Source: Sterolibacterium sp. (GTDB lineage: Bacteria; Pseudomonadota; Gammaproteobacteria; Burkholderiales; Rhodocyclaceae). Taken from it: a stretch of 56,785 bases of DNA. The DNA lies in NCBI GenBank assembly GCA_018061005.1, contig JAGOVA010000012.1, positions 1-56,785 on the forward strand. The letters are read 5' to 3'. Below the pieces are notes generated by a model. That model was not told where the DNA came from. It searched no databases and saw only the letters and a program-made list of their open reading frames with translations. This document shows, in pieces, positions 1 to 49,337 of this stretch (positions within the stretch are counted from its first letter, which is position 1; every line of letters starts with the position of its first letter). The position numbers and the translations under genes were made by a program.

Positions 1-342
1 GCGTCATGGCTTCCCTATTTGGCCTTGCCCCGGATGGGGTTTGCCGTGCCGTCCGCATTACTGCGTCCGCGGTGAGCTCTTACCTCGCCATTTCACCCTT
101 ACCTGGCCTCCCGGAAGAGCATCCCTCACGGGACTGCTCTTCTAAAGAGGACTTTGCCGCCTTGCGGCGGCGAAGTCCTCCGGGAGGCCATCGGCGGTAT
201 CTTTCTGTTGCACTTTCCGTCGCCTTGGGTCGCCGCTTGCGCGACGACTTATAGCGCCCGGCCGTTAGCCGGCATCCTGCTCTACGGGGCCCGGACTTTC
301 CTCCATGAGCAAATGCTCACAGCGACTGCCTAGCGAACTTCC
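1..342 (-). ncRNA. rnpB: RNase P RNA, 5' portion (cut by window edge)
   Basis: On the minus strand the sequence carries the hallmarks of the bacterial type A RNase P RNA: GGCAGTCGCTGTG near the 5' end, the conserved GAGGAAAGTCCGGGC block (about 289-303), the AAAGTGCAACAGAAAGATACC and CGCCGATGGCC blocks (about 185-215), GGTAAGGGTGAAA (about 92-104), and near the edge GGCAAACCCCATCCGGG and CAAGGCCAAATAGGG. This is the catalytic RNA that matures tRNA 5' ends. The 3' end, including the closing half of stem P1, lies outside the window. The 5' boundary is estimated from where the P1 strand should begin and may be off by about 10 bases. Confidence 0.95.
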
Positions 343-373
343 ACCCCGAAGTCTAGCAGGTTGCCGGAACTCC

Positions 374-2668
374 CTACCATTTATAACCCAGCGAAACTCC
401 CATCATGCGCGGCTCTGTCCAGCCCGCGACCCGATAAAAACCGGCCACATCGACATGCGTAGTTTCCTTGCGAAGATTGCCCAGGTTACGCACCCACAAC
501 GAAGCTTCGGCCTTACCCGGGCCACCGAGCGGAATACTGCTGAGCAACAAACGGGCATTGATCATCTGCAAGGCGGGCATGGTGGATTCTGCTGCCGAAT
601 TGCCCACGGCCACATTCGTTCCCACCGCCGCACGCTGACCGTGATAATTCAGGTAAGACGGCGTCATGCTGTAATCAACAATCCCGCGCAGCGTGCCCCA
701 GTCGGTGCGCGCCAGACGACCATCCAGGTTCAGGGTCAATTGATGCCGTGGCGCGTAAGAGGCCACGGTGTTTTCCGCCACATTCACCAGCGCACCATAC
801 TGGTTGAAGGTGTCGTATTCCTTGAACTTCATGTGCAGATAACCGTAACTGGCCTGCAGCCGCCAGCCATCCGCCAGCTGATAGAAGCCCTCCACCTCAA
901 GCCCTTCGCTTTTCAGCTTGCCCGCATTGACCGTCACCGGCGAAATCCCGCCCGGCGGCAACTGGTTGATGTGGTAATCATGCACATCGGTTGAAAACAA
1001 CGTGGCATTCAGCTGCGCCTTGCCATCGTTGAAAACCGATTTCACCCCCAGTTCAAAGGATGTCGAGTTTTCCTGATTGAACGGCCGCAGCGCTTGCGCT
1101 GCCGTTTCGGCCTCCAGCGGAAAACCGCCACTCTTGAAGCCCTTGGCATAACGACCAAAAACGGTCAGTTTTTCGTTCAGTTTGTATGAAAGCGCAGCCA
1201 CCGGGGTGGTGGCCGAAAAACTGGCCGTAGCCGCCTGCGGCGCAAACCGCTGCGTGGCCGCCGGATTGCCGAGCGGCCCCTCAGTACTCCACAGGGAACC
1301 CTGCCGCTCCTCCCAGCTACGGCGCACCCCCAGCGTCCCGGTCAGATCACGCATCAGTTTGTAATCCAGTTGGCCATACACCGCCTTGGCATAGGTCTGC
1401 GTGCGGTAATACAGCCAACGCTCCTTGGCCGGTGCAAAGCCAAAGGTGAAGTACCGCCCCATCTGATCGGTCAGCGTGGCTCCATCATCCTTGAACGAAT
1501 ACAGCCCCGCGACATAGTTCAGCCGATCGCTGCTGCCGATCCACTGCACTTCGTGCGAAGTCGTATCGTAATAGGTGTTTTTACCCGCGCTGAAGACATC
1601 GACCGGCGAGCCATCCAGGTCAAGCATCTCCTGATAATGCATCTTGCGCTTGGCGACGATGTATTTCACCGTGTTGCCCGGATTCAGGACATAACTGACG
1701 ATCAGCGACTGGCCATTCACATCCAGCTGGGTGTAATTTTCACGCCCAGGGGTGCTGGCAATCGACGACGGGTAACCACTATTGGCATACGGCGCGAGTG
1801 CCGGACGCAGCACATTGCCAAAAATCGGATTCAGCTTACCGGTGTAAGAAGCCGGATACAGGCTGGCATACCCGTTCTCACTAAGCAGGCTCAAGGCCGT
1901 CGGGGTCTCGTTGATGTGCGTGTGGTCGTAGGCATAATCCACCTTGAACGCCGGGCTGATATCCAGCCCCAGCGCGACACGTTGTGCCTGGCGGTTACGA
2001 TCATTCCACTGGCGGCCGTTGGTCGGATTATCCACCGTGCCATCGCGCTGTTCATCGCGCAGCGAGAACCCCATCCGCAGCATGCCCATTTTCGGCAAAT
2101 CGAGTGCAGCACGCACCACCTGATGACCGTACGTCCCCATCTCAACGCCGACATTGCCACCAAACTCACCCGATGGCTTGCGGGTAATGAAATTGATGGC
2201 GCCGCCCTCGGTGTTCTTGCCAAACAACGTGCCCTGCGGCCCACGCAGCAACTCGACCCGTTCGAGATCCAGCAAATCGAGCAACGCCCCCTGGGTCTTG
2301 CCGACATACACGCCATCCAGATACATGCCGATGGCGTTGTCTGACCAGATCCCAGGCTGCCCGCCACCGATACCCCGGATCGACAATGCCGCAATCAGCC
2401 CCGCCCCCGGCTGGGCGGCCTTGACGGTCACATTCGGTGCCAGCGCGTTGAGATTGCCCGCATTCTGGATCCCCCGGTTTTCGAGCTGACTGCCCGAAAT
2501 GGCGGTAATTGAAATCGGCACATCCTGCAGCCGCTCGGTGCGCTTCTGGGCGGTCACCACCACCTCTTCGAGCACTTCTTCCGCCAGTGCCTGACACGAA
2601 AATGCGGCACCCAGCAGCAAGGGCAGCACACGCAGGGAACTACGAGGGAAACGACGGGATGTTTGCAT
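374..2668 (-). CDS. TonB-dependent outer-membrane receptor (FecA/FyuA-like, paralogue 1)
   Basis: A 764-residue outer-membrane receptor taking up an unknown ligand with TonB energy. A signal peptide of about 28 residues ends near CQALA, followed by a TonB-box-like EEVVVTAQKR and a plug domain with GMYLDGVYVGK and VELLRGPQGTLFGKNTEGG. A long beta-barrel ends in aromatic Trp (LGYKW), as outer-membrane assembly requires. I place the start at 2668 because AGGAGG sits six bases upstream. An ATG seven codons earlier (2689) is possible but has no such site. It closely resembles the receptor at 47115-49337 in plug motifs and C-terminal pattern, so the two are paralogues. Receptors of this subclass are common in degraders of hydrophobic compounds as well as siderophore users, so the substrate cannot be assigned. 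It lies downstream of the HDOD gene on the same strand with a short gap. The stop is about 30 bases from rnpB. Confidence 0.9.
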   Translation of the reverse strand: MQTSRRFPRSSLRVLPLLLGAAFSCQALAEEVLEEVVVTAQKRTERLQDVPISITAISGSQLENRGIQNAGNLNALAPNVTVKAAQPGAGLIAALSIRGIGGGQPGIWSDNAIGMYLDGVYVGKTQGALLDLLDLERVELLRGPQGTLFGKNTEGGAINFITRKPSGEFGGNVGVEMGTYGHQVVRAALDLPKMGMLRMGFSLRDEQRDGTVDNPTNGRQWNDRNRQAQRVALGLDISPAFKVDYAYDHTHINETPTALSLLSENGYASLYPASYTGKLNPIFGNVLRPALAPYANSGYPSSIASTPGRENYTQLDVNGQSLIVSYVLNPGNTVKYIVAKRKMHYQEMLDLDGSPVDVFSAGKNTYYDTTSHEVQWIGSSDRLNYVAGLYSFKDDGATLTDQMGRYFTFGFAPAKERWLYYRTQTYAKAVYGQLDYKLMRDLTGTLGVRRSWEERQGSLWSTEGPLGNPAATQRFAPQAATASFSATTPVAALSYKLNEKLTVFGRYAKGFKSGGFPLEAETAAQALRPFNQENSTSFELGVKSVFNDGKAQLNATLFSTDVHDYHINQLPPGGISPVTVNAGKLKSEGLEVEGFYQLADGWRLQASYGYLHMKFKEYDTFNQYGALVNVAENTVASYAPRHQLTLNLDGRLARTDWGTLRGIVDYSMTPSYLNYHGQRAAVGTNVAVGNSAAESTMPALQMINARLLLSSIPLGGPGKAEASLWVRNLGNLRKETTHVDVAGFYRVAGWTEPRMMGVSLGYKW

Positions 2669-2790
2669 GAGCGTCCTCCTGAAATTCATTATGAAAACAA
2701 CACACGGCGATGAACTGCAGACCGACGCATACTACTGGCTACCGGCAATCTAGGCGACACGGCCACAGCCACCATCCACACAGGCTGGCA

Positions 2791-4245
2791 TCAGCCCTTC
2801 GCCCCATGCACGCGCAACACCTCCTGCAGCAGCTCACGCCATTCCCTGACCGCCGGGTCGCTGGCACCATCAAACGGTGCTTTAGGATGCGACTCGTCAA
2901 AATCCCCGTAAATCAAGCCCACCGGCTGGTCATCCACCACCAGCGTCAGCAACATCACTGAACGCGCACCCACCAGCGCAGCGTACCATTCCGGCATATA
3001 TTTCGCATAATTTTCTGCCTGGGTGTCAGCAATATAGTGATCCGCTTTCTTGTTGAAAATCAGTCTGAAAATATCCGCCTTCGCACCCTGGCAGCGAAAA
3101 CGCAAGGCAATCGGCCCAGCATTGCGCCCCACCCCCGCCACCGCCACCAAGCCCGACGAACCATCCGGCAGACACAACAGGCTGCGGCTGAAATCATATT
3201 TATCGTGTAATTGCCGCAACACCTGCTGAAACACCTCGATCGGCTTGCGCCCTTCCATGTGTTTACTTTCCTGCGCCAGACTATCCTGCGCCGACAGCAC
3301 ATCATGCACGCGCTCCGACGCCTTGCGCAGCAGGATGCGCGCATGCGCCACATCACAGGGCACGCCCAGCTCACCCAGTAACTGATCCGTCTTGAGCAAG
3401 GACTGCTCAATCCATTCACGCACCTCGACATCCTTCAGCCGCAAAACCAGCCGGAAATATTCGGTCTCCTTGACTATCTCGATTTTCTCGCGGCCTTCGG
3501 GCAGGCGAAACAGGATATCGGTGACAGCACGAGCATACAGCGCAGCATACTGATGCCACTCGAGTGGCGTATTGACACTACGCGGCGGTGCTTTTTCCTT
3601 GCGGATGCCGATACATTTCTGCAGCACATCCGGCAAGCTCCAGTGTGCCGCAATAGCCGCGCCGACCTCATCAAAACCAACCCCCAGCGTCTGGCGAATC
3701 GCCTCATCTTCGGTGATGTTCTTGTCCGCCTGCAAGGTATGGCTACGCTCAATCTCGGGATACAGATGATAAAGCGCCATCATCCGGCCGATGTTTTGCA
3801 TCAAACCACAGACCTGCGCCTCCTGCACACTGTAACGCGCGCCATTGACCCGGGTAATCTCCGCGCACAACAAACTGCAGAAATGCGCCGCCACAATTTC
3901 AGCATGCAGGTAACGCACCTGCGGGCTGCCCCCCAGCGCATCCAGCAAAGACAGGGATAGCGCCGTCGTCTTCACCGTATTCAGCCCCAGAATGACGATG
4001 GCCTGATCAATCGTAGACACGTTGCGCCCACCCCGCGCATGGTGGCTGGCATTCGACAGCCGCAACAGCCGCGCCGTCAACGCCGCATCGCGCAAAATAG
4101 CAGCAGCAATCTGCCGCGCATCGCCGTCACCCGAGTCCGTCAGACTGGAGATCAACTGCACCGCCGCGCCCAACCCCGCAAAGCCCGGGCAGCCATCAAT
4201 CGACCGCAACAACCGTGGCAGGGTCGCCTCTTCCTGAGTATTCAT
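2791..4245 (-). CDS. HDOD domain signalling protein with C-terminal GAF-like domain
   Basis: A 484-residue soluble protein. The N-terminal half (about residues 10-215) matches the HDOD domain, a non-catalytic relative of HD phosphohydrolases: helical blocks around ILRDAALTARLLRLSNA, a STIDQAIVILGLNTVK segment and CGLMQNIGRMMALYH, where the catalytic HD pair is not retained. The C-terminal part (about 320-480) has the pattern of a GAF-like sensor, with a QQVLRQLHDKYDFSRSLLC helix-strand start and a QPVGLIYGDFDES strand near the end. HDOD proteins are adaptors in signalling, motility and c-di-GMP networks. No enzymatic role is inferred. The ATG at 4245 is preferred over the in-frame TTG at 4251. 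Neither has a strong ribosome site. It is divergent from fbp. Confidence 0.85.
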   Translation of the reverse strand: MNTQEEATLPRLLRSIDGCPGFAGLGAAVQLISSLTDSGDGDARQIAAAILRDAALTARLLRLSNASHHARGGRNVSTIDQAIVILGLNTVKTTALSLSLLDALGGSPQVRYLHAEIVAAHFCSLLCAEITRVNGARYSVQEAQVCGLMQNIGRMMALYHLYPEIERSHTLQADKNITEDEAIRQTLGVGFDEVGAAIAAHWSLPDVLQKCIGIRKEKAPPRSVNTPLEWHQYAALYARAVTDILFRLPEGREKIEIVKETEYFRLVLRLKDVEVREWIEQSLLKTDQLLGELGVPCDVAHARILLRKASERVHDVLSAQDSLAQESKHMEGRKPIEVFQQVLRQLHDKYDFSRSLLCLPDGSSGLVAVAGVGRNAGPIALRFRCQGAKADIFRLIFNKKADHYIADTQAENYAKYMPEWYAALVGARSVMLLTLVVDDQPVGLIYGDFDESHPKAPFDGASDPAVREWRELLQEVLRVHGAKG

Positions 4246-4516
4246 ACGCAATCGTGTTCACTCAATCGTTCAATGACAGACCGGCGATTCTATACCTGCC
4301 GGATGCCGTCATCACTTTCATACATGCAAGTCACTCCCCCACAGATGATGAACCGAGCGCCCACCCCCCATTACACCCATCTCAAACATCCGTCACTCAA
4401 GTGGCAGCAACTGGTTTGTTCGCTACGCTCATCGCGTCCAACCGTCTCCGGTTGTTGTTATTTCACATTAAAATCACCCAATTGTTAGATTGTTAGATCG
4501 TTATCAAGGAACCGTC
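4246..4516. other. Intergenic region, HDOD gene / fbp divergent promoters
   Basis: This 271-bp spacer separates the divergent HDOD gene and fbp. It must hold both promoters. I see an AT-rich stretch (about 4458-4500) in front of fbp and a perfect 8-bp tandem duplication of ATTGTTAG at 4481-4496, just before the fbp ribosome site. Calvin-cycle genes are often controlled by the LysR-type CbbR, but its degenerate T-N11-A motif cannot be called reliably here. No RNA gene or further reading frame is convincing. Confidence 0.4.
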
Positions 4517-5614
4517 ATGCCCAACCGTCACAAGACACTGACCCGCTACATCATCGAACAGGATCACCTGCACCCGGGTGCGTCCGGCGACTTTTCCGGT
4601 TTGCTGAGTTCGCTGGCCACGGCCATCAAGATCATCTCCAACCAGGTACAACGTGGCGCGCTGATTGGGGTGCTGGGCAATGCGGCCGGTGGTGGTGAAA
4701 TCAACGTACAGGGTGAAGTCCAGAAGAAACTCGACGTACTCAGCAATGACGTGATGCTGCGCGAAAACGAGTGGTCGGGGCATATTGCCGGGATGGCTTC
4801 CGAAGAAATGGAAGACATCTACACCATCCCCCAACAATTCAAACGCGGCAAATATCTGCTGATTTTCGACCCGCTCGATGGCAGCTCCAACATCGACGTC
4901 AATGTCACGGTCGGCACCATCTTCTCGATTCTGCGCAGCCCGCACCCGGAAGAAGCGGTCACGCTGCAAGACTTTCTCCAGCCGGGCACCGAGCAGGTCT
5001 GCGCCGGCTTCGCGCTGTATGGCCCGGCGACCATGCTGGTGCTAACCACCGGCAACGGCGTCGACTGCTTCACACTCGACCGCGACGTAGGCGACTTCAT
5101 CCTCACGCATCCGCAGATGCGGATCCCTGAAGAAACCAAGGAGTTCTCGATCAACGCTTCCAACGAACGTTTCTGGGAGCCACCGGTCAAGCGTTTCATT
5201 GGTGAATGTCTGGCGGGTAAAACCGGGCCGCGTGGCAAGGATTACAACATGCGCTGGGTTGCCTCGCTGGTCGCCGAAGCCTTCCGCATCCTCACGCGGG
5301 GCGGCATCTTCCTCTACCCGCGTGATCACAAAGACCCGAACAAGCCCAGCCGTCTGCGCCTGATGTACGAAGCCAACCCGATCTCTTTCATCATTGAACA
5401 GGCGGGCGGATTGTCGATCACCGGCCGCGAGCGCGTCATGGAATTGCAGCCGGAATCGCTGCACCAGCGCGCACCGTTCATCTTCGGTTCCAGGAGCGAG
5501 GTCGAACGCATCCAGCGTTATCACGCAGACTTCGACACGCATGGCGACACGGGCAACTTCGATTCGCCGCTGTTTTCCTCGCGCTCGCTGTTCCGTGGCG
5601 AAACGGCACAATAA
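4517..5614 (+). CDS. fbp: Fructose-1,6-bisphosphatase class I
   Basis: This 365-residue cytosolic enzyme hydrolyses fructose-1,6-bisphosphate to fructose-6-phosphate, serving gluconeogenesis and, with the adjacent phosphoribulokinase, regeneration in the Calvin cycle. Visible class I features are the metal/substrate motif [17 protein letters not shown] (about residues 115-131), the [13 protein letters not shown] acidic region, [13 protein letters not shown], and [17 protein letters not shown] near the C terminus. Length fits the family. The start at 4517 has AAGGA six bases upstream. An in-frame ATG nine codons earlier (4490) lacks one. prk follows after 14 bp, so the two genes form an operon. 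Confidence 0.97.
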
Positions 5615-5628
5615 GCCCCGCCACCGCG

Positions 5629-6501
5629 ATGTCCCTCAAACATCCCATCATCGCCATCACCGGCTCCTCTGGTGCAGGAACCAGCTCGGTCACACGCACT
5701 TTCCAGACCATTTTCCGGCGTGAAAACATCACCGCCGCCTTTATCGAGGGCGACTCCTTCCATCGCTATGACCGCCTCACCATGCGGCAGACGATGGAAG
5801 CCGCCGCCCGTGCCGGGAATCTGCATTTCAGCCATTTTGGCCCGGAAGCCAATCTGCTGGCCGAGCTTGAACGCCTGTTCGAAGCCTATGGCAAAAACGG
5901 CACGGGGCGCATCCGCCAATACCTGCACGACGACAAGGAAGCCGCCGCCTGGCGACAGCCTGCGGGCACCTTCACGCCCTGGGCTGACCTGCCCCAGGGC
6001 AATGACCTGCTGTTTTATGAAGGGCTGCATGGCGCAGTGGTAACCGATACCATCGACGTTGCACGCCATGTCGATCTGCTGGTGGGTGTGGTGCCCATCA
6101 TCAATCTCGAGTGGATCCAGAAACTGCACCGTGACAAGGCCACCCGTGGCTATTCCACCGAGGCCGTGGTCGACACCATCCTGCGGCGCATGCCCGATTA
6201 CGTCAATTTCATCACACCGCAATTCGCCCGTACTCATGTGAACTTCCAGCGTGTGCCCACGGTAGACACTTCCAACCCCTTCGTCGCGCGCGACATTCCC
6301 ACGGCGGATGAAAGCTTCGTGGTGATCCGCTTCGCCGACCCCAAAGGCATCGATTTTCCTTACTTGCTGTCGATGATCGACAACGCTTTCATGTCACGCG
6401 CCAACAGCATCGTCGTCCCCGGCGGCAAGATGGAACTGGCCATGCAGCTGATCTTCACGCCACTGGTGCTGCGCCTCATGGAAAACCGCAAACGCGCATA
6501 A
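5629..6501 (+). CDS. prk: Phosphoribulokinase, class I (proteobacterial type)
   Basis: This 290-residue enzyme phosphorylates ribulose-5-phosphate with ATP to ribulose-1,5-bisphosphate, the committed substrate-forming step of the Calvin cycle. The P-loop is GSSGAGTS at residues 12-19, lacking the usual lysine as class I enzymes do. It is followed by the EGDSFHRYDR substrate loop (about 41-50) and the Walker B-like LLFYEGLHG (about 126-134). Length and sequence fit the octameric bacterial type and not the plant or cyanobacterial type. It lies 14 bp behind fbp in an apparent fbp-prk operon. No RuBisCO, cbbR or other cbb gene is present in the window, so autotrophy is likely but not shown here. 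Confidence 0.96.
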   Translation: MSLKHPIIAITGSSGAGTSSVTRTFQTIFRRENITAAFIEGDSFHRYDRLTMRQTMEAAARAGNLHFSHFGPEANLLAELERLFEAYGKNGTGRIRQYLHDDKEAAAWRQPAGTFTPWADLPQGNDLLFYEGLHGAVVTDTIDVARHVDLLVGVVPIINLEWIQKLHRDKATRGYSTEAVVDTILRRMPDYVNFITPQFARTHVNFQRVPTVDTSNPFVARDIPTADESFVVIRFADPKGIDFPYLLSMIDNAFMSRANSIVVPGGKMELAMQLIFTPLVLRLMENRKRA

Positions 6502-29788: not shown

Positions 29789-31036
29789 TCAGGTTGTAAT
29801 GTGTTCGCCGGTAATACTGTCCATGCTGCGGACTTCGGTCCAGTACATCCAGATCAACGAAACCCAGACCACGCCATACATCAGCATGAAGCAGCTGGAA
29901 CGCACCCCCGTCAAATCGACCAGCGCACCGAACATGATCGGCAGCAAAAAGCCACCCATGCCGCCCGCCAGACCGACGATGCCGGAAATGACACCAATGT
30001 TTTTCGGATAGTCATCGGAGATGTACTTGAACACCGAGGCTTTGCCGATCGCCCAGGCAATCCCCATACCGAACATCAGGGCGGTAAATACCCAGACATT
30101 GAGGCCGAGGTGGAAGCTTTGCGGACCAGTCACGGTCTGGATGACCAGATCGGTTTGCGGATAGGAGAGAATGAACAGGCAGATCCACGAAAACCACAGC
30201 ACCCACCAGGTCACCTTGTGCGCGCCAAACTTGTCTGAGAAATAACCGCCCAATGCGCGCAGCACGCCGCCCGGCAGGGAGAAACAGGCGGCGAGGAAGG
30301 CGGCATCCTTGATGTCGAAACCGTATTCGGCAACGTAGTACTTGGTCATCCACAGCGACAGCGCGACATAGCCGCCGAACACGATGGAGTAGTACTGACA
30401 ATACTTCCAGACCTTCGGATCTTTCAAAGCGGCGAGCTGTTCCGCCACAGACACCTGAGCCCCCGCCTTGTGCGACGGATCGTCAAAAGTAAACAGCCAG
30501 AACAGGATCACCGTACCCAGCATCACCGCTGCATAAACCTGCGGCACATACTGCCAGCCGTAAGCCAGCACCAGCGAGGGCGCGACCAGCTTGGTCACCG
30601 CCGCACCCGAATTGCCCGCGCCAAAAATCCCCATCGCCAGCCCTTGCTGGTTCTTCGGGAACCAGCGCGCGCAGTAAGCAATACCCACGGTGAAGGAGCC
30701 ACCGGCCACGCCAACGAACAGACCGGTCACCAGGAAATGCCAGAACTCGGTGCCATATTGAATCATGTAGATCGGCACGATGGTCGAGGCCATCAGGATG
30801 GCAAAAATCATACGGCCGCCAAACCGGTCGGTCAGCATGCCCAGCGGCAGGCGGATCAGGGAGCCGGTCAGCACCGGCATGGCCACCAGCAGGCCAAACT
30901 GGGTTTCATTGAGACTCAAGGCCTTCTTGATCGGAATGCCGATGACGGCAAACATCATCCACACCATGAAGCACACCGTGAATGCGATGGTGCTCATAGC
31001 GACGACGGACCACTGCTTCGTCTTTTTCGATGCCAC
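29789..31036 (-). CDS. narK1: Nitrate transporter NarK1 type (proton symporter)
   Basis: A 415-residue MFS protein with 12 predicted helices, of the NarK1 branch that imports nitrate with protons to start respiration. Nitrate-signature regions are VGVAGGSFTVGIAYCARWFP with GIFGAGNSGAAV, and the second is modified (GMGIAWAIGKASVFKYI). The start codon is GTG at 31036, with AGGGGAG seven bases upstream. First gene of narK1-narK2-narGHJI. The divergent spacer to the fusion flavoprotein carries its promoter. Confidence 0.92.
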   Translation of the reverse strand: MASKKTKQWSVVAMSTIAFTVCFMVWMMFAVIGIPIKKALSLNETQFGLLVAMPVLTGSLIRLPLGMLTDRFGGRMIFAILMASTIVPIYMIQYGTEFWHFLVTGLFVGVAGGSFTVGIAYCARWFPKNQQGLAMGIFGAGNSGAAVTKLVAPSLVLAYGWQYVPQVYAAVMLGTVILFWLFTFDDPSHKAGAQVSVAEQLAALKDPKVWKYCQYYSIVFGGYVALSLWMTKYYVAEYGFDIKDAAFLAACFSLPGGVLRALGGYFSDKFGAHKVTWWVLWFSWICLFILSYPQTDLVIQTVTGPQSFHLGLNVWVFTALMFGMGIAWAIGKASVFKYISDDYPKNIGVISGIVGLAGGMGGFLLPIMFGALVDLTGVRSSCFMLMYGVVWVSLIWMYWTEVRSMDSITGEHITT

Positions 31037-31323
31037 GATGCTCCCCTTTACCCAAGTTAAAAACCGGTGGCGGTTTCAGGTTGCCCTGAACGTGCTGAAC
31101 GTAGTTTCCGCGATGTTCGAAGTCTAGGCAGAGACGGACAGGCTCACCATCCGTCTCTGGTCTGACCTAATGAAGTCATTCGGAGGGGTGATGACTCGAC
31201 ACAACGAACTAGGCCGACCATTTCATCTAGTACTTTCGAACTAGTCACATCCATGACATTGGTCACATGCAACGCAAACGGCTTACAATGTACGCCACCA
31301 TCTTATCCTTGATAAACAAGCCC
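31037..31323. promoter_or_regulatory. Divergent control region narK1 / fusion flavoprotein
   Basis: 287 bp. Visible structures: a perfect 10-bp inverted repeat CAGAGACGGA / TCCGTCTCTG with an 11-base loop (31129-31159); an 8-bp direct repeat CGAACTAG at 31205-31212 and 31237-31244; and the inverted pair CTAGT/ACTAG at 31227-31244. No convincing FNR box (TTGAT-N4-ATCAA) was found; only a half-site TTGATAAAC near 31313. NarL heptamers are too degenerate to call by eye. The repeats suggest regulator binding, but the regulator is unknown. Confidence 0.5.
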
Positions 31324-34300
31324 ATGAATCCAGCCGCTGCATCTCAACTGCATCAGGAATTCGACATTATCGTCGTTGGCGCCGGCCCGGCGGGCGCGAC
31401 GACCGCCTACTATCTGGCGCATGCGTCACGACAGCAGGGGCGACCGCTTTCGGTGGGTTTGCTCGACAAGGCACGCTTCCCACGCGACAAATATTGTGGC
31501 GATGCCTGGTGCGCGCCCGCGCTGGAAATCCTCGAAGACATGGGCGTGCTGCAGGAGATCATCGCCGAAGGTCTATTCATGGACACCACCTCGGGTGGCT
31601 TCGTTTCGCCCAGCGGCGAAAATTACATGACCCGCGAAGGCGGCGACGCGACGGTATCCAGGGAGAATCGCACCTTCGCCATCAAACGCATAATTTGCGA
31701 CGAACGCATCGCCCGGCGCGCCGTCGAAGTCGGTGCCACATTGATCGAGGATGCCAACGTCAGCAGTGCCCATCTTGATGCTGATGGCATCTGGCAGGTG
31801 CGCTGCGCCGACGAACGCGCGTTCTGCGGCAAGATGCTGATTGCCGCCGACGGAGCGACCAGCAAGCTGGCACGTATGCTGGGGGTGGTCAGCGATGCGC
31901 CCAGTGCGGCGGCCGCGCGCCAATACGTCAAGGGCGGCACGCACAACTTCAAGGCCGGCGGCGTGCTGCTGTTTCCGGAATATGTGTTGCCCGGTTACGT
32001 CGCGCTGTTCCGCCACTACAACGATGACATCGACCTGGGAGCCTACATCATCCCTGGCGGGGCGGCGCGCGTCGAAGATGCTGCGCGGATTTACGAAGAC
32101 CGGATTTACAACGACCCTTTCATCCAGCGCGTACTAGGGCCTAAGGTCGAGTTTCTCGAACCGGTGCGTACCGCTTCACTGCGGATGGGCGGTGTGGCGC
32201 GCAGCACCATGCGGCAGTTCATGGCCGTAGGTGATGCCGCCGGGCAAACCGATCCCCTCACCGGCGAAGGCATCCACACCGCCATGATGGGTGGTCGGCT
32301 GGCCGCCCATCGCGTACTCGAAATGTTTGCAGCCAATGCAGGCCCAGCCGCCTTTGACGAGGCCGCCACCGCCGTCTACCACCAACGCTGGATGGCCGCC
32401 TTTGGCAAGGATTTCGCCTCATCCGCCCTGTCGGCGCGGATGTCCTACCGCTTTCCTTTCTTTCTGGATGCGGCGGCCAGCCTGGCCGAACGTGTGGGTG
32501 ACCGCTTCATGAACGAATTTGGCGCGATCATGACCGGCGTCAAACCGAAATCGACCTATGCCCGCCCCGACATTGCCCTGCCCTTGAGCTGGGAAGTCGG
32601 CAAACAGTTCTTCCGGCAAAAGCTCTTGCGACAACCAGCGGGGGAAGCGGCTTACCGGCAGCGTGCCGAAGAAAATCCGACGCGCAGCAGTTCCTTCAGC
32701 GCTGTCTGCCTGCGTGACCCGCAAATTTCTGCACGATCTGTCGCGGCGGCTCTGGCACAAAAAACCCGCGTCAATCCAGCCGAGGAGCTATTCCAGTTTG
32801 CCAGCGACGCGCCCGCTGCGCGCCCGCTGTTGATCCTCTACGGTTCCGAATACGGCTACAGCAAGAGCACCGCGCTGCGTCTGGCGGAGGAACTTGCCGC
32901 CGTGACGGTGGACGATGCGCCCATCTCTCCACGCGTCCTCGATCTTGCCGCGCACGCCTTGATCGACTGGTCCCGCGAGCCACTGATTTTCATCATATGC
33001 GCGACGGCCGGGGATGGCGAATTCCCCGAGCATGCCCGGTCCTTCGTCGCCTGGCTCGAAGCGGGTGCGGCACTTGAGCAGACGGCCTACGCCTTGCTGG
33101 CCTGCGGCGACAGTAGTTATCCGAACTTCTGCCGTGCTGGTCATCAACTGCACGCCCTGCTGGCGCAGGCTGGAGCACGCGCCCTGCAGCCGGCCGCTGA
33201 AGTCGACCAGGAAGATGAAGATCAGCTCGCGAGCTGGTTCGATACTGTGCACACCCTGCTTGAGCACGCACCCACGCTCGCCACCCAGACGATGACGGGA
33301 GATTATCTGCCCGATGCGGCACGGTACTACTACGCAAGCCACGAGGAAAACAGCGGAATTTCACGCAAGCATCCCTGCCGCGCACGCATCGTCACGCGCA
33401 CCCTGCTCACCCAGAACAGTACAGACGAAGCGCAGGAAACCGTCTCGCTGGAACTCGATCTGCATCACTTTCCCGACCCGCGACGCATGGAATGGCAGCC
33501 GGGCGATGCCCTCGGTGTGCTGGCACACAACCCGCCCACGCAAGTTGCACAACTCCTCGAACGGATGAACCTGGCGGGTGACACCAGCATCACGATCGGT
33601 GAGGAGACGCTCCGTTTCGAAGATGCCCTGCGCTCACGCCTCGATCTCAAATCGCTCCATCGTGCACGCATTGAAAAATTCGTCACGCACATCAATGATG
33701 CGACAGAGTGTGCACACTGGGAAAAGATCGTTGCCGAACATGAAGATGCGGATGAGGCGGCACGCGCATACGCTCAGGGTCGGGAACTCATCGACCTGCT
33801 CGATGACTTTCCGCAGACGACCCGCCAGCTTGCGCTGGCCGACTGGCTCAAGCTGCTGCCGCCCATACAGCCCCGTTTCTATTCAATTGCCTCATCGCCG
33901 CTCATCCATGCCGGTCAGATCACGCTCTGCGTTTCACGCGTGCGTTACACCACCCACGGCAAGGCGCGCGAAGGGCTGGCCTCGAACTATCTCGCCGCGC
34001 ATCTCGACATCGGCAGCGAATGTGATGTCTTCCTCCAGCCCAACAAAACCTTCCGTCCCATCAGCCTGGATGCGCCGGTCGGTTGCGTCATGATCGGCCC
34101 AGGCACTGGGGTGGCACCCTTCCGGGGGTTCATTCAGCATATGACGCAACAAGCACGCGCCGCAAACAGCACGCTAGCCGAAATCTGGCCGCAAGGTGAC
34201 GTGCCCTTGCTGTTTTTCGGCTGCCGCCACCCCGATCAGGATTTTCTGTATCAAACGGAATGGCAGGCACTGGATACCAACGGTGAAATCCGCCTGATCA

Positions 34301-34557
34301 CCGCCTACTCACGCCATCAGGCCGAGAAGGTCTATGTTCAGCATCGCCTGCGCGACGAAGCCGCGCTGATCTGGCAGCGCCTCGAGCGCGGCGCAGCGTT
34401 CTTCATTTGCGGCGACGCCACCCACATGGCCGCTGATGTCGAACAAGCACTGCTCGAGATCATTGCCAGCCAGTGCCCATGCAGCCCCAGCGCAGCACGA
34501 ACCTACCTCGAGCAGGTGGCGCGTGCCGGACGCTATCACAAGGATGTATGGGCCTGA
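31324..34557 (+). CDS. Fusion: geranylgeranyl-reductase-like flavoprotein + CysJ/CPR-type diflavin reductase
   Basis: A 1077-residue cytoplasmic protein of two modules. Residues about 10-430 are a geranylgeranyl reductase family (PHBH-fold) flavoprotein: VVGAGPAGATTAYYLA, then ARFPRDKYCGDAW (the family PRxKxCG element), and MAVGDAAGQTDPLTGEGIHTA near residue 303. After a linker (about 430-495), a flavodoxin-like FMN domain follows (LYGSEYGYSKSTA, ATAGDGEFPEHA, CGDSSYPNFCRAG). Next is a CPR-type FAD domain (RFYSIASSP, GLASNYLA) and an NADPH domain (IGPGTGVAPFRGFIQ, EKVYVQHRLRDE, ICGDATHMAADVEQALLEI), ending RYHKDVWA as CysJ does. All flavin and NADPH motifs look intact, so electrons could flow NADPH-FAD-FMN to the N-terminal flavin. 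No CysI partner is adjacent. A double-bond reductase of isoprenoids (for example quinone tails) or a hydroxylase is possible; the substrate is unknown. In-frame starts at 31267 and 31288 are alternatives; none has a good ribosome site. Divergent from narK1. Confidence 0.88.
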   Translation: MNPAAASQLHQEFDIIVVGAGPAGATTAYYLAHASRQQGRPLSVGLLDKARFPRDKYCGDAWCAPALEILEDMGVLQEIIAEGLFMDTTSGGFVSPSGENYMTREGGDATVSRENRTFAIKRIICDERIARRAVEVGATLIEDANVSSAHLDADGIWQVRCADERAFCGKMLIAADGATSKLARMLGVVSDAPSAAAARQYVKGGTHNFKAGGVLLFPEYVLPGYVALFRHYNDDIDLGAYIIPGGAARVEDAARIYEDRIYNDPFIQRVLGPKVEFLEPVRTASLRMGGVARSTMRQFMAVGDAAGQTDPLTGEGIHTAMMGGRLAAHRVLEMFAANAGPAAFDEAATAVYHQRWMAAFGKDFASSALSARMSYRFPFFLDAAASLAERVGDRFMNEFGAIMTGVKPKSTYARPDIALPLSWEVGKQFFRQKLLRQPAGEAAYRQRAEENPTRSSSFSAVCLRDPQISARSVAAALAQKTRVNPAEELFQFASDAPAARPLLILYGSEYGYSKSTALRLAEELAAVTVDDAPISPRVLDLAAHALIDWSREPLIFIICATAGDGEFPEHARSFVAWLEAGAALEQTAYALLACGDSSYPNFCRAGHQLHALLAQAGARALQPAAEVDQEDEDQLASWFDTVHTLLEHAPTLATQTMTGDYLPDAARYYYASHEENSGISRKHPCRARIVTRTLLTQNSTDEAQETVSLELDLHHFPDPRRMEWQPGDALGVLAHNPPTQVAQLLERMNLAGDTSITIGEETLRFEDALRSRLDLKSLHRARIEKFVTHINDATECAHWEKIVAEHEDADEAARAYAQGRELIDLLDDFPQTTRQLALADWLKLLPPIQPRFYSIASSPLIHAGQITLCVSRVRYTTHGKAREGLASNYLAAHLDIGSECDVFLQPNKTFRPISLDAPVGCVMIGPGTGVAPFRGFIQHMTQQARAANSTLAEIWPQGDVPLLFFGCRHPDQDFLYQTEWQALDTNGEIRLITAYSRHQAEKVYVQHRLRDEAALIWQRLERGAAFFICGDATHMAADVEQALLEIIASQCPCSPSAARTYLEQVARAGRYHKDVWA

Positions 34558-38348: not shown

Positions 38349-40574
38349 TCAATACTTGAACACCACTTCAGCAAAAAAGGCTCGACCCTGCGCTCGCGAT
38401 GACTGATAGTACTTGCGGTCGCTGAGGTTGCTGCCAGACACAGAGACACTGGTGTGTTCGTCAAATTTGTAGGCTAGCTTGGCATCGACGAGGAAGAACG
38501 GATCATAAGCGCCATAAACTCCGTTAATGACATCCCGGTTCTCTTCGTTGTTGTACACCTTGCCCACATAATGACCACCCAGCGAACCACGCCAGGCACC
38601 GTAACTACCTTCGATACCGAGGTTGGCCATGCGGCGTGGCGTAGCAGTCATCACTTTGCCGACCGTCAGCGGCTTGGCGAAATTCTCGGTAATTTTCGGA
38701 TCGTTGAACGTGACATTTGCATAGGTCGTGAGGCCTGCCATGAGTGGCTGACGCACTTCCAGCTCAATCCCGCGCACGCGTGCCTTACCTGCATTCTCGA
38801 CCCCCTGCGCCATCAGCGAATCCGACTGGGTACGATAGATCAGATCCTTGAGCCGGTTCTCAAACACCGTCGCGCGCAGCAGCGTGCCCCCTTGCAGACG
38901 TTGCTCGCCGCCAAGTTCCCAGGAAGTCACGGTCTCGGGTTTGAGACCCGGGTTCGGCGTAAACGTGTAACCGGTAGTCGGTGTCCACCAGCCAAAAGTG
39001 TCACGCAAATTGGGCGTGTGAAACGAAGTACCGACCGAACCACGCACCGTGATGGCCTCCACCGGTCGCCAGACCAATGAAAGTTTTGGGCTGAAATGCG
39101 ATTGCTTACGTGCCTCGAATTCGTTGCGATAGGCACCGGGGGCTTCGACCTGCTCGATCTCACCCTGCGTCGACCATTTGTCGTAGCGGCCGCCCACATA
39201 GGCCGTCAGCCGCTCGGCCAGGGCGATTTCGTCCTGCGCGTAAAACGAATAAGTGGTGTCCTCACCCGCAGTGTGATTCTTGATCGGTCCCATCGCACCA
39301 GGATTGCGCCAGTCGCTAATGGCGTAGGTCACCGTGTCGATGCTGCGTTTGACTGCCGACAGTCCGAGAGCCAGCTTCTGGCTCGCTGAAAGCGGCAGGC
39401 TGCCCTGCAAACCAGCGGAAATCTCACTGCTGGGCCGCAACATGCGCGAAGCAGTTCCCCCGGCAGCCAGCGTCGCACCCGGGCTCAGGACGATGTAGTT
39501 GTTGTAAAGCGGCATGTCCGCAAAGCCCAGCGTAGCCTTGAGCGCAGCACCGTTATCGAAGGCCTTCTCGTAAGAAGCCGAATAGCGGCTGTACTCCTTG
39601 ATCTCGCTGTCAGGCCCGGTGAGGAACTGCGACTCCCGCACCGACAGACGCGCGCCGCCCGCCAGCACGACGTTGCCGCTACTGACCGGCGTGCCCGCGG
39701 CATTAGTCAGATCAGTGTGGTAATGGTTGCGACCGCTGCTGGTGTACAGGAATTGCGATGCCCCAAGGATGACGTGCGAGCTATGATCGATGTCCCAGTA
39801 CAGCTTGACACCGACATTTTCGGCCGTCCAGCCAGCCTTGCCTTTGTCGCCCACCCGATAGCGGACATTACCGCTGGCATCTGTCGTGCGCGTCGCGCCA
39901 CTGACCGACGTGGCACCACTGCCAACACTGCCGCTGATCACCGCACTGAGCAGCACATCGTCCTTGATGAAGCCATCGCTGCGCTTGTAACCGTAGTCGA
40001 AAACCACCGCCACGCTGGGGCCGAAACGATCCTGATACACCACGCTGCCCGCACGAAAATCGTCCGTACCCAAACCACCGCGCACGGTAACGGCACGCTT
40101 GGTCGGCGCTTTGGTGATGATATTGATGACACCGCCCATGGCACTACCGCCATACAGCGAGGAGAACGGGCCGGGCACGACTTCAATGCGCTCGATTGTT
40201 TCGGTCGGCACCGACTCCCAGGTGACCGTGCCAATATAAGGATCGTTGAGCGTCTGACCATCAACCAGCACCAGCGTGCGCGAAGCATCCGGAATACCGC
40301 GCAGCATGATGTGGGTACCCATCACGCTGGGTTCGTGGCCGCCCGGCCGTGACGCATAGGCGCCGGGTATGTGAGTCAACGCCTCGTCGGCCGACTGGAT
40401 GTTACGTGCCTCGATCTCGCGCGCACCCACCACACTGACGGTGGCCGGCGCATCGGCCGTGCTCTTGGCAGACCTGGTTGCAGTAATCACGACTTCCTGC
40501 ACTTGTTCTGCGTGCACATTCAGCGCACAAGCCAGCGTCATGGTCATGGCGGAGTAACGAAACATCGGGTTCAT
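38349..40574 (-). CDS. TonB-dependent outer-membrane receptor (BtuB/OprC-like)
   Basis: A 741-residue receptor with a signal peptide ending at NVHA, TonB box QEVVITATRS, and plug motifs VLVDGQTLNDPYIG, IERIEVVPGPFSSLYGGSAM and GGVINIITK. It has a long barrel and a terminal FFAEVVFKY. It belongs to a different subclass from the two GMYLDGVY-type receptors in this window: the plug resembles BtuB/CirA/OprC-like proteins. First gene of a three-gene minus-strand operon (receptor, sialidase-like, thioredoxin). An FNR/Anr-like box lies about 93 bp upstream. Ligand not assignable; copper or another metal complex is a hypothesis. Confidence 0.88.
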   Translation of the reverse strand: MNPMFRYSAMTMTLACALNVHAEQVQEVVITATRSAKSTADAPATVSVVGAREIEARNIQSADEALTHIPGAYASRPGGHEPSVMGTHIMLRGIPDASRTLVLVDGQTLNDPYIGTVTWESVPTETIERIEVVPGPFSSLYGGSAMGGVINIITKAPTKRAVTVRGGLGTDDFRAGSVVYQDRFGPSVAVVFDYGYKRSDGFIKDDVLLSAVISGSVGSGATSVSGATRTTDASGNVRYRVGDKGKAGWTAENVGVKLYWDIDHSSHVILGASQFLYTSSGRNHYHTDLTNAAGTPVSSGNVVLAGGARLSVRESQFLTGPDSEIKEYSRYSASYEKAFDNGAALKATLGFADMPLYNNYIVLSPGATLAAGGTASRMLRPSSEISAGLQGSLPLSASQKLALGLSAVKRSIDTVTYAISDWRNPGAMGPIKNHTAGEDTTYSFYAQDEIALAERLTAYVGGRYDKWSTQGEIEQVEAPGAYRNEFEARKQSHFSPKLSLVWRPVEAITVRGSVGTSFHTPNLRDTFGWWTPTTGYTFTPNPGLKPETVTSWELGGEQRLQGGTLLRATVFENRLKDLIYRTQSDSLMAQGVENAGKARVRGIELEVRQPLMAGLTTYANVTFNDPKITENFAKPLTVGKVMTATPRRMANLGIEGSYGAWRGSLGGHYVGKVYNNEENRDVINGVYGAYDPFFLVDAKLAYKFDEHTSVSVSGSNLSDRKYYQSSRAQGRAFFAEVVFKY

Positions 40575-47114: not shown

Positions 47115-49337
47115 TTACCAGCGATAGTTCACCGAAACACCGTAAGTACGCGGCTGCAGATAATACGCCGTGGTCAGATTGGCAAAGCCCGGCCCGAAAT
47201 CGATGAAATTCACGGGCTGCTGCTTGTTCGTGACATTCCTCACCCACAACGCCATGTCTGCATTCCCCGGGCCACCGAGCGGAATTCTCGACAACGCCAG
47301 GCGCAGATTCAGCAGGCCATAACCATCCACTTTGGTACTCCCCGCCACGGCCTTGCTCGCATCGACCGGGGAAAGCTGGTACGGATAGCTGTATTGCGAC
47401 GAGGTATAGCTGTAATCCGCAATCGCACGCCACTGACCGACACTCGTCTGCCCCAACCGGGCATCTGCCGTGAACGTCAGCGTATGTTTGGGGGCATGCG
47501 GGAAGGCACGGTTACCCGCCACATTACTGATCGGCTGGCCAACGGCTGCGGCCTCCATGTACTCGCCATATTTGCCATTGAGATAACCGTACCCCAGTTG
47601 CAGACGCAAGGCATCGATCGGCCGGTAGCTGGCCTCCAGTTCTATCCCCTTAGTCTTGGCTTTGCCCGCATTGCGGATCACCGACAAACCCGGCGTCCCG
47701 GTAAACCGCGAAATCTGCATGTTCTGGATGTCGTTGTAGAACAACGCGGCATTCAGTTGCATGCGGCCATCCGCAGAGGTCATCTTGGCACCCACCTCAT
47801 AGGTCTTCTGCTTTTCCGGCTCAAACGGAATCCTGGCTTCGGCCTGTGTCGGTGCCTCGCCCTGGAAGCCGCCGCTCTTGAAGCCTTCAGCGTATTTGGC
47901 ATACACATTGGTACGCTCGTCGAGCTTATACGCCAGCGAAACCATGGGGGTCGTTGCCGAGAACGAAGCACTGGCGCTGGTGGGCGGAATTGCTGCCCCC
48001 ATCGCGGCGGCCGTCACCGTCTTGAAGCGCAAGCCCTGCTTGTCTTCCGTCGTGCGACGCAGGCCACCAGACAGCGTCCAGGCATCGGTCAACCGGTAAT
48101 CCAGCTGGCCATACAACGCCTTGGCCTTACTGGCATAACCATACTCCGAGCTATCGTTGCCAAACAACGCGATATGCGGATTGACGGTGTAACCATCATC
48201 CTTGTAATGATAAAAACCCAGCAGATACTTCATGCGATCAGTATGACCAATCCACTGCAGTTCCTGCGACTTTTGTGTGTAGTCGGCGATGCGCTGGCCG
48301 TTGTAAATTTTCACCGGCGTACCGTCCAGATCGAAGGAATCATTGTTCGTCAGGTTGCGATGAGAGGCGATCCATTTCAGGGTGTTCTGCCCATCGAGCT
48401 GCCATGAAACCGTCAGGCCATGCCCTTTCAGATTCAGCCGCTCATACGACGGATAGTCTATGCTCGCCATCTCCTGCCGGTCTTTCGCCACATACGGTGC
48501 CATGGCCGCGAGCGGTCCGGTGGTGGCCGTCATCCGGTAGAGTTGATTGTGCGGCAACGCCTGATCCACCTTGGTGTAATCGTATCGATAATCCGCCTGG
48601 ATATCCTTGGAAAAATCGAGCAACACCGCAAGACGAGCCCCCAGATTGTCGCGCGTATCCAGTTCGCTCACCGGGCTACCTGCCCGCGCCTTGACCAGAC
48701 CATCCCGCTTTTCTGTACGCATCCCAAGTGAAACACTGGCAATCCCAAAACGGGGCAGATCCAGCGAGAATTTTTCTGTGTGCATGCCGTAATTGCCGAT
48801 ATCGACACCAACCGAGCCACCGAATTCACCACTTGGTTTCTTGGTGACGATATTCACAGCACCGGCCATGGTGTTACGACCATACAGCGTACCCTGCGGG
48901 CCGCGCAGCACTTCGATGCGCTCGACATCCACCACATCGAACACCGAACCCACCGCCTTACCCAGATAGACCCCATCCAGATACATGCCCACACTGGGCT
49001 CCCAGTACATCGCCGCGTTGAACGTCACGCCACCACGAATGGCCACTTGAGAAGTGACATTACTGGTCGGATATTTACTAATCTGCAGATTGGGCGACAG
49101 CGCATTGAGATCAAGCACATTGTTGATCCCGCGCGCCTCAATCTGGCTACTGGTCAGCGCACTGATGGCAATCGGCACATCCTGCAAGCGTTCCACTCGC
49201 TTCTGGGCGGTTACGATAACCTCTTCGATCGGTGCCTCCGCCGCCATGCCCGCACCAGAAAAGACCGAAGCCACTGCCGTGGCCAGTGCCAGACGTCGTG
49301 CGTGCAGGTGACGCGAAAAATGTTGATGCTGAGCCAT
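47115..49337 (-). CDS. TonB-dependent outer-membrane receptor (paralogue 2)
   Basis: A 740-residue receptor with a signal peptide of about 32 residues (ending GAGMAA), TonB-box region EEVIVTAQKR, plug motifs GMYLDGVYLGKAVG, IEVLRGPQGTLYGRNTMAGA and VNIVTKKPSGEFGG, and a barrel ending in VSVNYRW. Plug motifs and tail match those of the receptor at 374-2668, so the two are paralogues that have diverged in the barrel and probably in ligand. AGGGAG lies upstream of the ATG. Its upstream spacer, shared with the metal efflux operon, contains short tandem repeats and palindromes. Confidence 0.9.
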   Translation of the reverse strand: MAQHQHFSRHLHARRLALATAVASVFSGAGMAAEAPIEEVIVTAQKRVERLQDVPIAISALTSSQIEARGINNVLDLNALSPNLQISKYPTSNVTSQVAIRGGVTFNAAMYWEPSVGMYLDGVYLGKAVGSVFDVVDVERIEVLRGPQGTLYGRNTMAGAVNIVTKKPSGEFGGSVGVDIGNYGMHTEKFSLDLPRFGIASVSLGMRTEKRDGLVKARAGSPVSELDTRDNLGARLAVLLDFSKDIQADYRYDYTKVDQALPHNQLYRMTATTGPLAAMAPYVAKDRQEMASIDYPSYERLNLKGHGLTVSWQLDGQNTLKWIASHRNLTNNDSFDLDGTPVKIYNGQRIADYTQKSQELQWIGHTDRMKYLLGFYHYKDDGYTVNPHIALFGNDSSEYGYASKAKALYGQLDYRLTDAWTLSGGLRRTTEDKQGLRFKTVTAAAMGAAIPPTSASASFSATTPMVSLAYKLDERTNVYAKYAEGFKSGGFQGEAPTQAEARIPFEPEKQKTYEVGAKMTSADGRMQLNAALFYNDIQNMQISRFTGTPGLSVIRNAGKAKTKGIELEASYRPIDALRLQLGYGYLNGKYGEYMEAAAVGQPISNVAGNRAFPHAPKHTLTFTADARLGQTSVGQWRAIADYSYTSSQYSYPYQLSPVDASKAVAGSTKVDGYGLLNLRLALSRIPLGGPGNADMALWVRNVTNKQQPVNFIDFGPGFANLTTAYYLQPRTYGVSVNYRW

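Follow-up and report, generated by a model that had tools for sequence, protein, structure and literature searches.

In a 56,785-nucleotide stretch of a Sterolibacterium sp. genome (contig JAGOVA010000012.1 of assembly GCA_018061005.1), hereafter referred to as the window, we have characterized a gene that joins a flavoprotein of the geranylgeranyl reductase (GGR) superfamily to a complete NADPH-dependent diflavin reductase in a single polypeptide. The gene, as defined by its open frame and by full-length homologues, occupies positions 31324..34557 of the plus strand and encodes 1077 residues followed by a stop codon, with an alternative in-frame ATG upstream at position 31267 that would extend the protein to 1096 residues. 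All parts of the protein are encoded on the same strand and include a GGR-superfamily FAD module (residues ~13-473, 31360..32742), a linker (residues ~474-498, 32743..32817), where the confidence of the structure model is lowest at residues 482-486, an FMN-binding flavodoxin domain (residues 504-633, 32833..33222) and FAD and NADPH domains of the type found in CysJ and in cytochrome P450 reductase (CPR) (residues 680-1040, 33361..34443). This organization is reflected in a Pfam scan, where DAO/FAD_binding_3 is matched within residues 13-189, Flavodoxin_1 at 504-633, FAD_binding_1 at 680-889 and NAD_binding_1 at 923-1040, all above cut-offs. An interpretation made earlier from the letters of the DNA (the sequence-only reading) had described one uninterrupted 1077-residue frame in which a GGR-family FAD protein is joined to a full CysJ-type reductase with its motifs, and domain search and motif check agree with this description.

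The diflavin reductase half (residues ~499-1077) is complete and of the CysJ/CPR type. It contains the sequences TAGDG (561-565), RFYS (851-854), GPGTGVAPFR (925-934), SR...K.Y (996-1004), CGD (1029-1031) and a C-terminal DVW (1074-1076), which we take to be the signature motifs of diflavin reductases and which are invariant across the five copies found in Sterolibacterium except for positions 852 (F/Y) and 931 (A/S). The presence of Flavodoxin_1, FAD_binding_1 and NAD_binding_1 together with these cofactor motifs places this half in the NADPH-diflavin reductase superfamily, and its best match in a phmmer search of the PDB is the CysJ structure 6efv (1.4e-71). A search of BFVD with the full-length model returned among its best rows general matches to FAD proteins and flavodoxins, which are uninformative, and since the pTM of this model is 0.60, we have left the placement of the two halves relative to each other uninterpreted.

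The fusion is found end to end in all four Sterolibacterium genomes, in five copies (G002 carries two), with the other four copies being 62-78% identical to that of the window. Outside the genus, the full fusion is present at the loci L048 (49% identity over residues 13-1076) and L049 (45%), in two metagenome-assembled genomes (MAGs) of one Myxococcota class, and all four Pfam domains were found in each of the four fusion copies scanned. The recurrence of the full-length fusion, seven times in six genomes, rules out an assembly artefact or a join of two contigs. The MAG that contains L049 (G1146) is titled Geobacter sp. QR_Bin.25 and groups in the class of L050, with MAGs titled Deltaproteobacteria or Myxococcales; its title is thus probably wrong. 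Some match (E <= 0.001) is present in 47 of the 61 genomes near the window, with the full fusion restricted to the four of the same genus. Of 399 genomes from the order, 30 gave a match at E <= 1e-60, all except one only from residue 449 on, in frames of 584-1862 residues; the matches listed in this search do not include the other three genomes of Sterolibacterium.

Relatives of the GGR half were sought in 84,980 species genomes with two peptide patterns, a scan that is not exhaustive and that identified 10 loci. Five of these (L050-L054) contain the GGR half alone, at 41-59% identity, and L056 is a weak relative (30%). In profile searches, 6 of 235 genomes from the phylum of L051 proved to contain the family, three of them new (G1284, G1227 and G1322, the last with two copies), as did 4 of 90 genomes from the class of L050, two with fused and two with stand-alone proteins. 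At E <= 1e-20, the GGR half retrieved two weak relatives (27-32%) from 369 genomes of the class and no relative besides the window in 398 genomes of the phylum. Neither the viral contigs searched nor PHROGs contain a match to the fusion. On plasmids, the fusion matched 94 records at E <= 1e-20, none covering 80% of the query, and the 20 best of these cover only residues 459-1076, whereas 17 records matched the GGR half with 21-29% identity, again none covering 80%. A GGR-family gene of 2139 nucleotides (~712 residues) on the Rhodococcus oxybenzonivorans plasmid pRB98 (L116, 811 onward), located beside a polyprenyl synthetase gene, encodes a further GGR that carries a long extension at its C-terminus and is only 27-28% identical to the GGR half of the window.

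The origin of the fusion was investigated in a tree of 16 family members and 12 outgroup rows, of which we have used only forks inside the family since the outgroup branches are long. All seven fused copies fall into a single clade (100/99), next to the stand-alone proteins L050 and L051 (100/98), within the stand-alone Myxococcota proteins. As the fused copies are united in one clade and the fewest-changes count between fused and not fused is 1, the fusion arose once. Its source was probably a Myxococcota lineage, from a stand-alone protein there, and Sterolibacterium would most simply have obtained it by transfer. Within Sterolibacterium, the GGR half is the better conserved one, with 70-86% identity to the window, compared to 54-78% in the FMN part and 56-74% in the FAD/NADPH part. 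Comparisons of the window with G001 and with copy 1 of G002 yield dN/dS values of 0.09 and 0.12 in the GGR half and of 0.18 and 0.19 in the reductase half, and the linker region (421-498), where dS is saturated, yields 0.04-0.06. The fusion is under purifying selection.

The GGR half carries GxGxxG, FPRDKYCGD and GDAAGQTDPLTGEG motifs and adopts a fold of the GGR superfamily, with GGR and FixC folds ranking above those of halogenases and monooxygenases. Residues C58-G59-D60 (31495..31503, plus strand) are invariant in all 16 family members and contain the counterpart of the redox-active cysteine that is located behind the flavin in GGRs (PMC6309074). The FAD-binding segment G303-D-A-A-G-Q-T-D-P-L-T-G-E-G-I-H318 (32230..32277, plus strand) includes the GGG/GEG motif as G314-E315-G316, the form found in GGRs of the BchP/ChlP type; the glutamate is present in 15 of the 16 members and copy 2 of G002 has GAG instead. 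The prenyl-binding motif YxWxFP, which has been reported for all GGRs shown to be active (PMC6309074), is replaced by P223-G224-Y225-x-A227-x-F229-R230 (31990..32013, plus strand), with P, G, Y, A, F and R each conserved in 16 of 16 members. In the window protein this stretch reads Y225-V-A-L-F-R230, and it is lined up with YSWIFH of an archaeal DGGGPL reductase in a MAFFT alignment and with YGWVFP of a BchP by eye. The replacement by an invariant PGYxAxFR counts against ordinary prenyl or quinone-tail substrates.

Recurring gene neighbourhoods point to lipid or steroid catabolism rather than nitrate. At L028, the locus of copy 2 of G002, the flanking genes are co-directional with the fusion, in the order DUF2325 protein, short-chain dehydrogenase/reductase, amidohydrolase, SnoaL-like protein, 82-residue protein, fusion and three flavoproteins resembling phytoene desaturase or CrtO, as judged from a family scan of two of the three. 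The two flavoproteins checked for this motif carry the covalent-flavin consensus GFRGNTHA in one case and the variant EYYHNTHA in the other, a consensus described for delta24-steroid desaturase and limonene dehydrogenase (PMC11061730). Orthologues of both subunits (53.4 and 56.5%) follow the stand-alone homologue at L051/L107, in a Myxococcota MAG. The contig also contains SnoaL and enoyl-CoA hydratase-family genes, together with acyl-CoA ligase and 3-ketosteroid-delta1-dehydrogenase-like genes that score under their NCBIfam cut-offs, and the genome of L048 harbors the same pair (53.4 and 56.8%) on a separate contig. The homologue at L050 is flanked on both sides by acyl-CoA dehydrogenase genes and has a KstD-like gene at a distance of ~9 kb. 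An acyl-CoA ligase gene directly adjoins the homologue at L087, and another is separated from the family member at L086 by three genes. An RPE65-type carotenoid oxygenase (363.7 bits) is encoded ~6.5 kb from the stand-alone member at L086 (424-1896, G1284).

We had considered the neighbours of copy 2 as the published delta24-steroid desaturase, whose subunits have masses of 63 and 57 kDa (PMC11061730), and have dropped this assignment: with 64.6 and 61.4 kDa they appear to be a different pair, since one located beside groEL/groES-like genes (62.7 and 57.0 kDa, with GFLFNTHA and GFRFNLHA) fits better by predicted mass and motif. By these two criteria, G002 may itself be S. denitrificans. The 82-residue protein at L028 (6887-7135), which has no Pfam match, and a closely similar one at L067 (9927-10175) precede two CtmAB-like loci in G002 and are possibly small partners of these flavoenzymes. 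Both G002 (L067, 6345-9779) and the Myxococcota MAG G1145 (L090, 4246-7701) contain a further flavoprotein pair (~560 and 575 residues) whose N-termini are very similar, and in G1145 this pair adjoins relatives of the copy 2 pair. The window itself encodes three large TonB-dependent receptors (374-2689, 38349-40574 and 47115-49337), fitting the uptake of poorly soluble substrates.

Taken together, we tentatively favor, at somewhat less than an even chance, the interpretation of the fusion as a self-sufficient enzyme of lipid or steroid catabolism that uses NADPH to reduce a C=C bond in a bulky isoprenoid, which would most likely be a sterol or an intermediate resembling one. Reduction of a C=C bond is favored by the combination of GGR class, cysteine and anaerobic genus, and the proposal of the sequence-only reading that this member of the GGR superfamily is self-contained and driven by NADPH is supported by Pfam, NCBIfam and fold. 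In the mechanism that we infer, NADPH would reduce the FAD of the CysJ-like part, from where the flavodoxin domain would receive electrons on its FMN. This domain would then swing on the linker and hand over electrons one at a time, in two steps, to the FAD of the GGR part, and the reduced flavin, with Cys58 behind it, would hydrogenate a substrate bound in a pocket that may be widened by the change from tryptophan to alanine and lined by the conserved arginine.

As concrete candidate substrates we consider sterols with a non-activated double bond, for instance ergosterol or brassicasterol with their delta22 bond. Sterolibacterium denitrificans degrades ergosterol and stigmasterol, and none of four C25 hydroxylases showed significant activity on delta22 sterols (PMC6016249). 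Jacoby et al. 2018 considered reduction of delta22 or another conversion prior to C25 hydroxylation as likelier, with reduction being difficult with physiological donors (PMC6016249). For stigmasterol the problem is solved by a desaturase, which converts neither ergosterol nor brassicast-1,4-diene-3-one (PMC11061730). The fusion may be one of the missing enzymes of anaerobic sterol breakdown. In a more specific form, which we consider speculative and rather unlikely, it would be a missing reductase that acts with NADPH and without oxygen on non-activated double bonds of sterols, such as delta22 in side chains of the ergosterol and brassicasterol type. Such an enzyme would combine a flavoprotein of the GGR type, its pocket widened and bearing an arginine, with a power unit resembling P450 reductase, and would have been passed from Myxococcota to anaerobic sterol degraders.

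Several observations weigh against a sterol-directed C=C reductase. Extracts of stigmasterol-grown S. denitrificans provided with dithionite or Ti(III) did not reduce delta22 of stigmast-1,4-diene-3-one (PMC11061730), which is thus at least an unlikely substrate. The family lacks the YxWxFP motif of active GGRs, and the window protein reaches 152.5-156.4 bits in the NCBIfam model TIGR02032 (GG-red-SF), narrowly below the cut-off of 158.8. The GGR half alone scores 155.1 bits, and of the other copies L051 (163.3), copy 1 of G002 (162.0) and L048 (159.8) are above and copy 2 of G002 (153.5) is below the cut-off. In a PDB sequence profile, halogenases score equal to or above GGRs. The window copy is not inside a steroid gene cluster, L050 also has cytochrome oxidase and cytochrome b genes at a distance of 3-8 kb, on the side opposite from the KstD-like gene (148-5662, encoding a COX1-type oxidase and a protein with cytochrome b, 4Fe-4S and FlpD domains), and among the seven genomes reached via homologous loci only three have a CtmAB-like match (E <= 1e-10) and two of the seven have close orthologues of the copy 2 pair.

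The described neighbourhoods also bear on an alternative, which we regard as unlikely, where the fusion would act as electron-transfer partner of covalent-flavin enzymes related to CtmAB or delta24-desaturase, with the GGR/FixC-like domain exchanging electrons and the diflavin part providing the link to NADPH, in place of CtmE and the reductase CtmF of Castellaniella. In this organism CtmAB requires the ferredoxin CtmE (PMC4109377). The Pfam scan revealed no ferredoxin domain in the fusion, which in this respect differs from the CtmEF-type set of a 2Fe-2S ferredoxin and an NADH:ferredoxin oxidoreductase. The fusion resembles the Castellaniella CtmAB-CtmEF system and the Sterolibacterium delta24-steroid desaturase in having neighbours of this type at two homologues, but the available accounts of both systems mention neither a GGR-like nor a diflavin component. 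Against such a partnership, four of the seven genomes, including the fusion-bearing G1146, a 2.0 Mb MAG, lack a CtmAB-like match. Close relatives of the copy 2 pair were not found in G000, G001 and G003; a delta24-desaturase-like pair resides on another contig than the fusion in G000, as does a similar pair in G001, and none was matched in G003. Moreover, stand-alone homologues exist without a diflavin part, and the transfer of electrons from a desaturation to NADP would be an uphill process.

A second alternative is a monooxygenase in which the FAD of the first domain, after reduction by the CPR-like part with electrons from NADPH, would react with O2 to hydroxylate or epoxidize a sterol or terpenoid. 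Squalene epoxidase, which works with P450 reductase, offers a comparison, the superfamily includes many FAD monooxygenases and halogenases, and P450 reductases, as near kin of the C-terminal half, feed oxygenases. We nevertheless hold a monooxygenase to be unlikely in view of the invariant GGR-type cysteine, the ranking of folds and the presence of narGHJI in a genus whose studied member degrades sterols anaerobically. As for halogenases, the model PF04820 matches the window protein with 30.6 bits (cut-off 21), best at residues 280-352, and the four compared halogenases have GES at the position of CGD in the family.

The sequence-only reading had suggested that the protein would be a reductase or hydroxylase of isoprenoids, for example of a quinone tail, and, from its place opposite narK1, that it would serve anaerobic growth on nitrate. 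The fusion gene is indeed divergent from narK1-narK2-narGHJI, with NarL- and NarX/NarQ-type genes further downstream; narK1 itself (29789..31036, minus strand) scores 217.8 bits in TIGR00886, under the cut-off of 311.7. This synteny is confined to the genus, where it is found in three of the four genomes (window, G001 and G003), whereas in G002 a stretch of ~8 kb with ABC/HlyD transport genes separates narK1 from the fusion. Outside the genus, no nar genes were detected near homologues in stretches inspected by eye and, for L106 and L107, by BLAST against the nar proteins of the window, where the single match is a response-regulator-like protein of 502 residues (32% to NarL). A palindromic element, CTAGTACTTTCGAACTAGTCA (31227..31247, strandless), with the form GACTAGTTC-4-GAACTAGTC, is located between both genes, upstream of narK1, with one match in each of the four Sterolibacterium genomes. 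We had considered it as operator shared by narK1 and the fusion and have abandoned this idea: in G002 (C1:239583-239603, L105 ~3584), where it forms the core of a perfect inverted repeat with 19-bp arms, it remains beside narK1 and away from the fusion, and we therefore assign it to narK1, where it may serve the nar operon as an operator or an RNA element. Regulation of the fusion by nitrate was likewise rejected, as no FNR-like box (<=2 mismatches) is found between narK1 and the gene, the whole window containing 30 matches compared to 16.5 expected. We thus see the adjacency as inherited gene order and the link to nitrate as weak. A quinone- or polyprenyl-tail reductase supporting nitrate respiration, for which superfamily membership, the adjoining nar genes and the oxidase genes near L050 could be invoked, is also at odds with the replaced YxWxFP motif and with a score of 92-95 bits in the MenJ model (NF045655, cut-off 700), and we find it improbable.

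There is only a slim chance that the protein is a maturase comparable to LodB, GoxB or QhpG, for example priming stable flavin semiquinones of CtmAB-like enzymes. Models of these proteins match 15, 15 and 16 of the 16 members, respectively (E <= 1e-10), and diflavin reductases carry out one-electron chemistry, but the window half reaches only 62, 51 and 49 bits compared to cut-offs of 400, 400 and 240, and a CtmAB-like partner was not found in four of the seven genomes.

Least credible is a role of the CysJ-like part as flavoprotein of an assimilatory sulfite reductase, for which one could cite cysJ (TIGR01931) as top NCBIfam match of the C-terminal half, the lack of a match to a separate CysJ-length protein in G000 and G002 and a CysI-like protein in the fusion-bearing G1146 (337.7 bits, cut-off 756.55), but where the cysJ score of 393 bits stays below the cut-off of 668, the CysI model finds no more than 45.7-53.6 bits in the four Sterolibacterium genomes and 55.5 bits in the fusion-bearing G1145, and none of 33 other family genomes matches the whole diflavin stretch, with frames of 476-492 residues in G014 and G023 matching its flavodoxin and FNR parts. 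The sequence-only reading had remarked on the absence of a sulfite reductase hemoprotein in the vicinity, and this holds: the closest protein of the sirohaem type that we noticed in the window is NirB, ~21 kb away.

Returning to the favored C=C reductase, its relationship to known systems defines what is new. Compared to members of the GGR family (TIGR02032), such as the archaeal DGGGPL reductase (3oz2), Sulfolobus GGR (3atq) and BchP/ChlP, the fusion has YxAxFR in place of YxWxFP and bears its own NADPH-diflavin module, whereas reducing equivalents of known GGRs, which are assayed with dithionite, are thought to be supplied by an NAD(P)H/ferredoxin reductase (PMC6309074). It shares with CysJ and P450 reductase (6efv, BM3-type) the complete FMN-FAD-NADPH module with its motifs, but this module is fused behind a flavoprotein instead of a haem protein, scores below the cysJ equivalog cut-off and has no good CysI match in Sterolibacterium. 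As in P450-CPR fusions (BM3) and bifunctional nitrate reductase/CysJ-like proteins, a catalytic unit is combined with a diflavin reductase into a self-sufficient enzyme, but here this unit is an FAD protein of the GGR type. One plasmid-borne match is annotated as a bifunctional nitrate reductase/sulfite reductase flavoprotein, and in the order, frames of 1386-1423 residues match the diflavin half, the part that was compared. Unlike FixC, the electron transfer flavoprotein (ETF)-quinone oxidoreductase relative (7koe_C) that was compared and lacks the GGR cysteine, the fusion has both this cysteine and a diflavin reductase. Self-sufficient diflavin-reductase fusions are thus a known design, and the novelty lies in the GGR-type catalytic unit and in a GGR-like subfamily with changed substrate motif. 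We found no description of a GGR-diflavin reductase fusion in the open-access literature searched, and the available portions of PMC7411048 and PMC8449060 name no such fusion gene.

GGR-type enzymes hydrogenate unactivated isoprenoid double bonds (PMC6309074), and a natural single-chain NADPH-dependent enzyme of this type would be a usable biocatalyst that would also reveal the route of electrons to the GGR flavin. For Sterolibacterium, the fusion provides a testable gene for a stated gap, the handling of delta22 sterols other than stigmasterol without oxygen.

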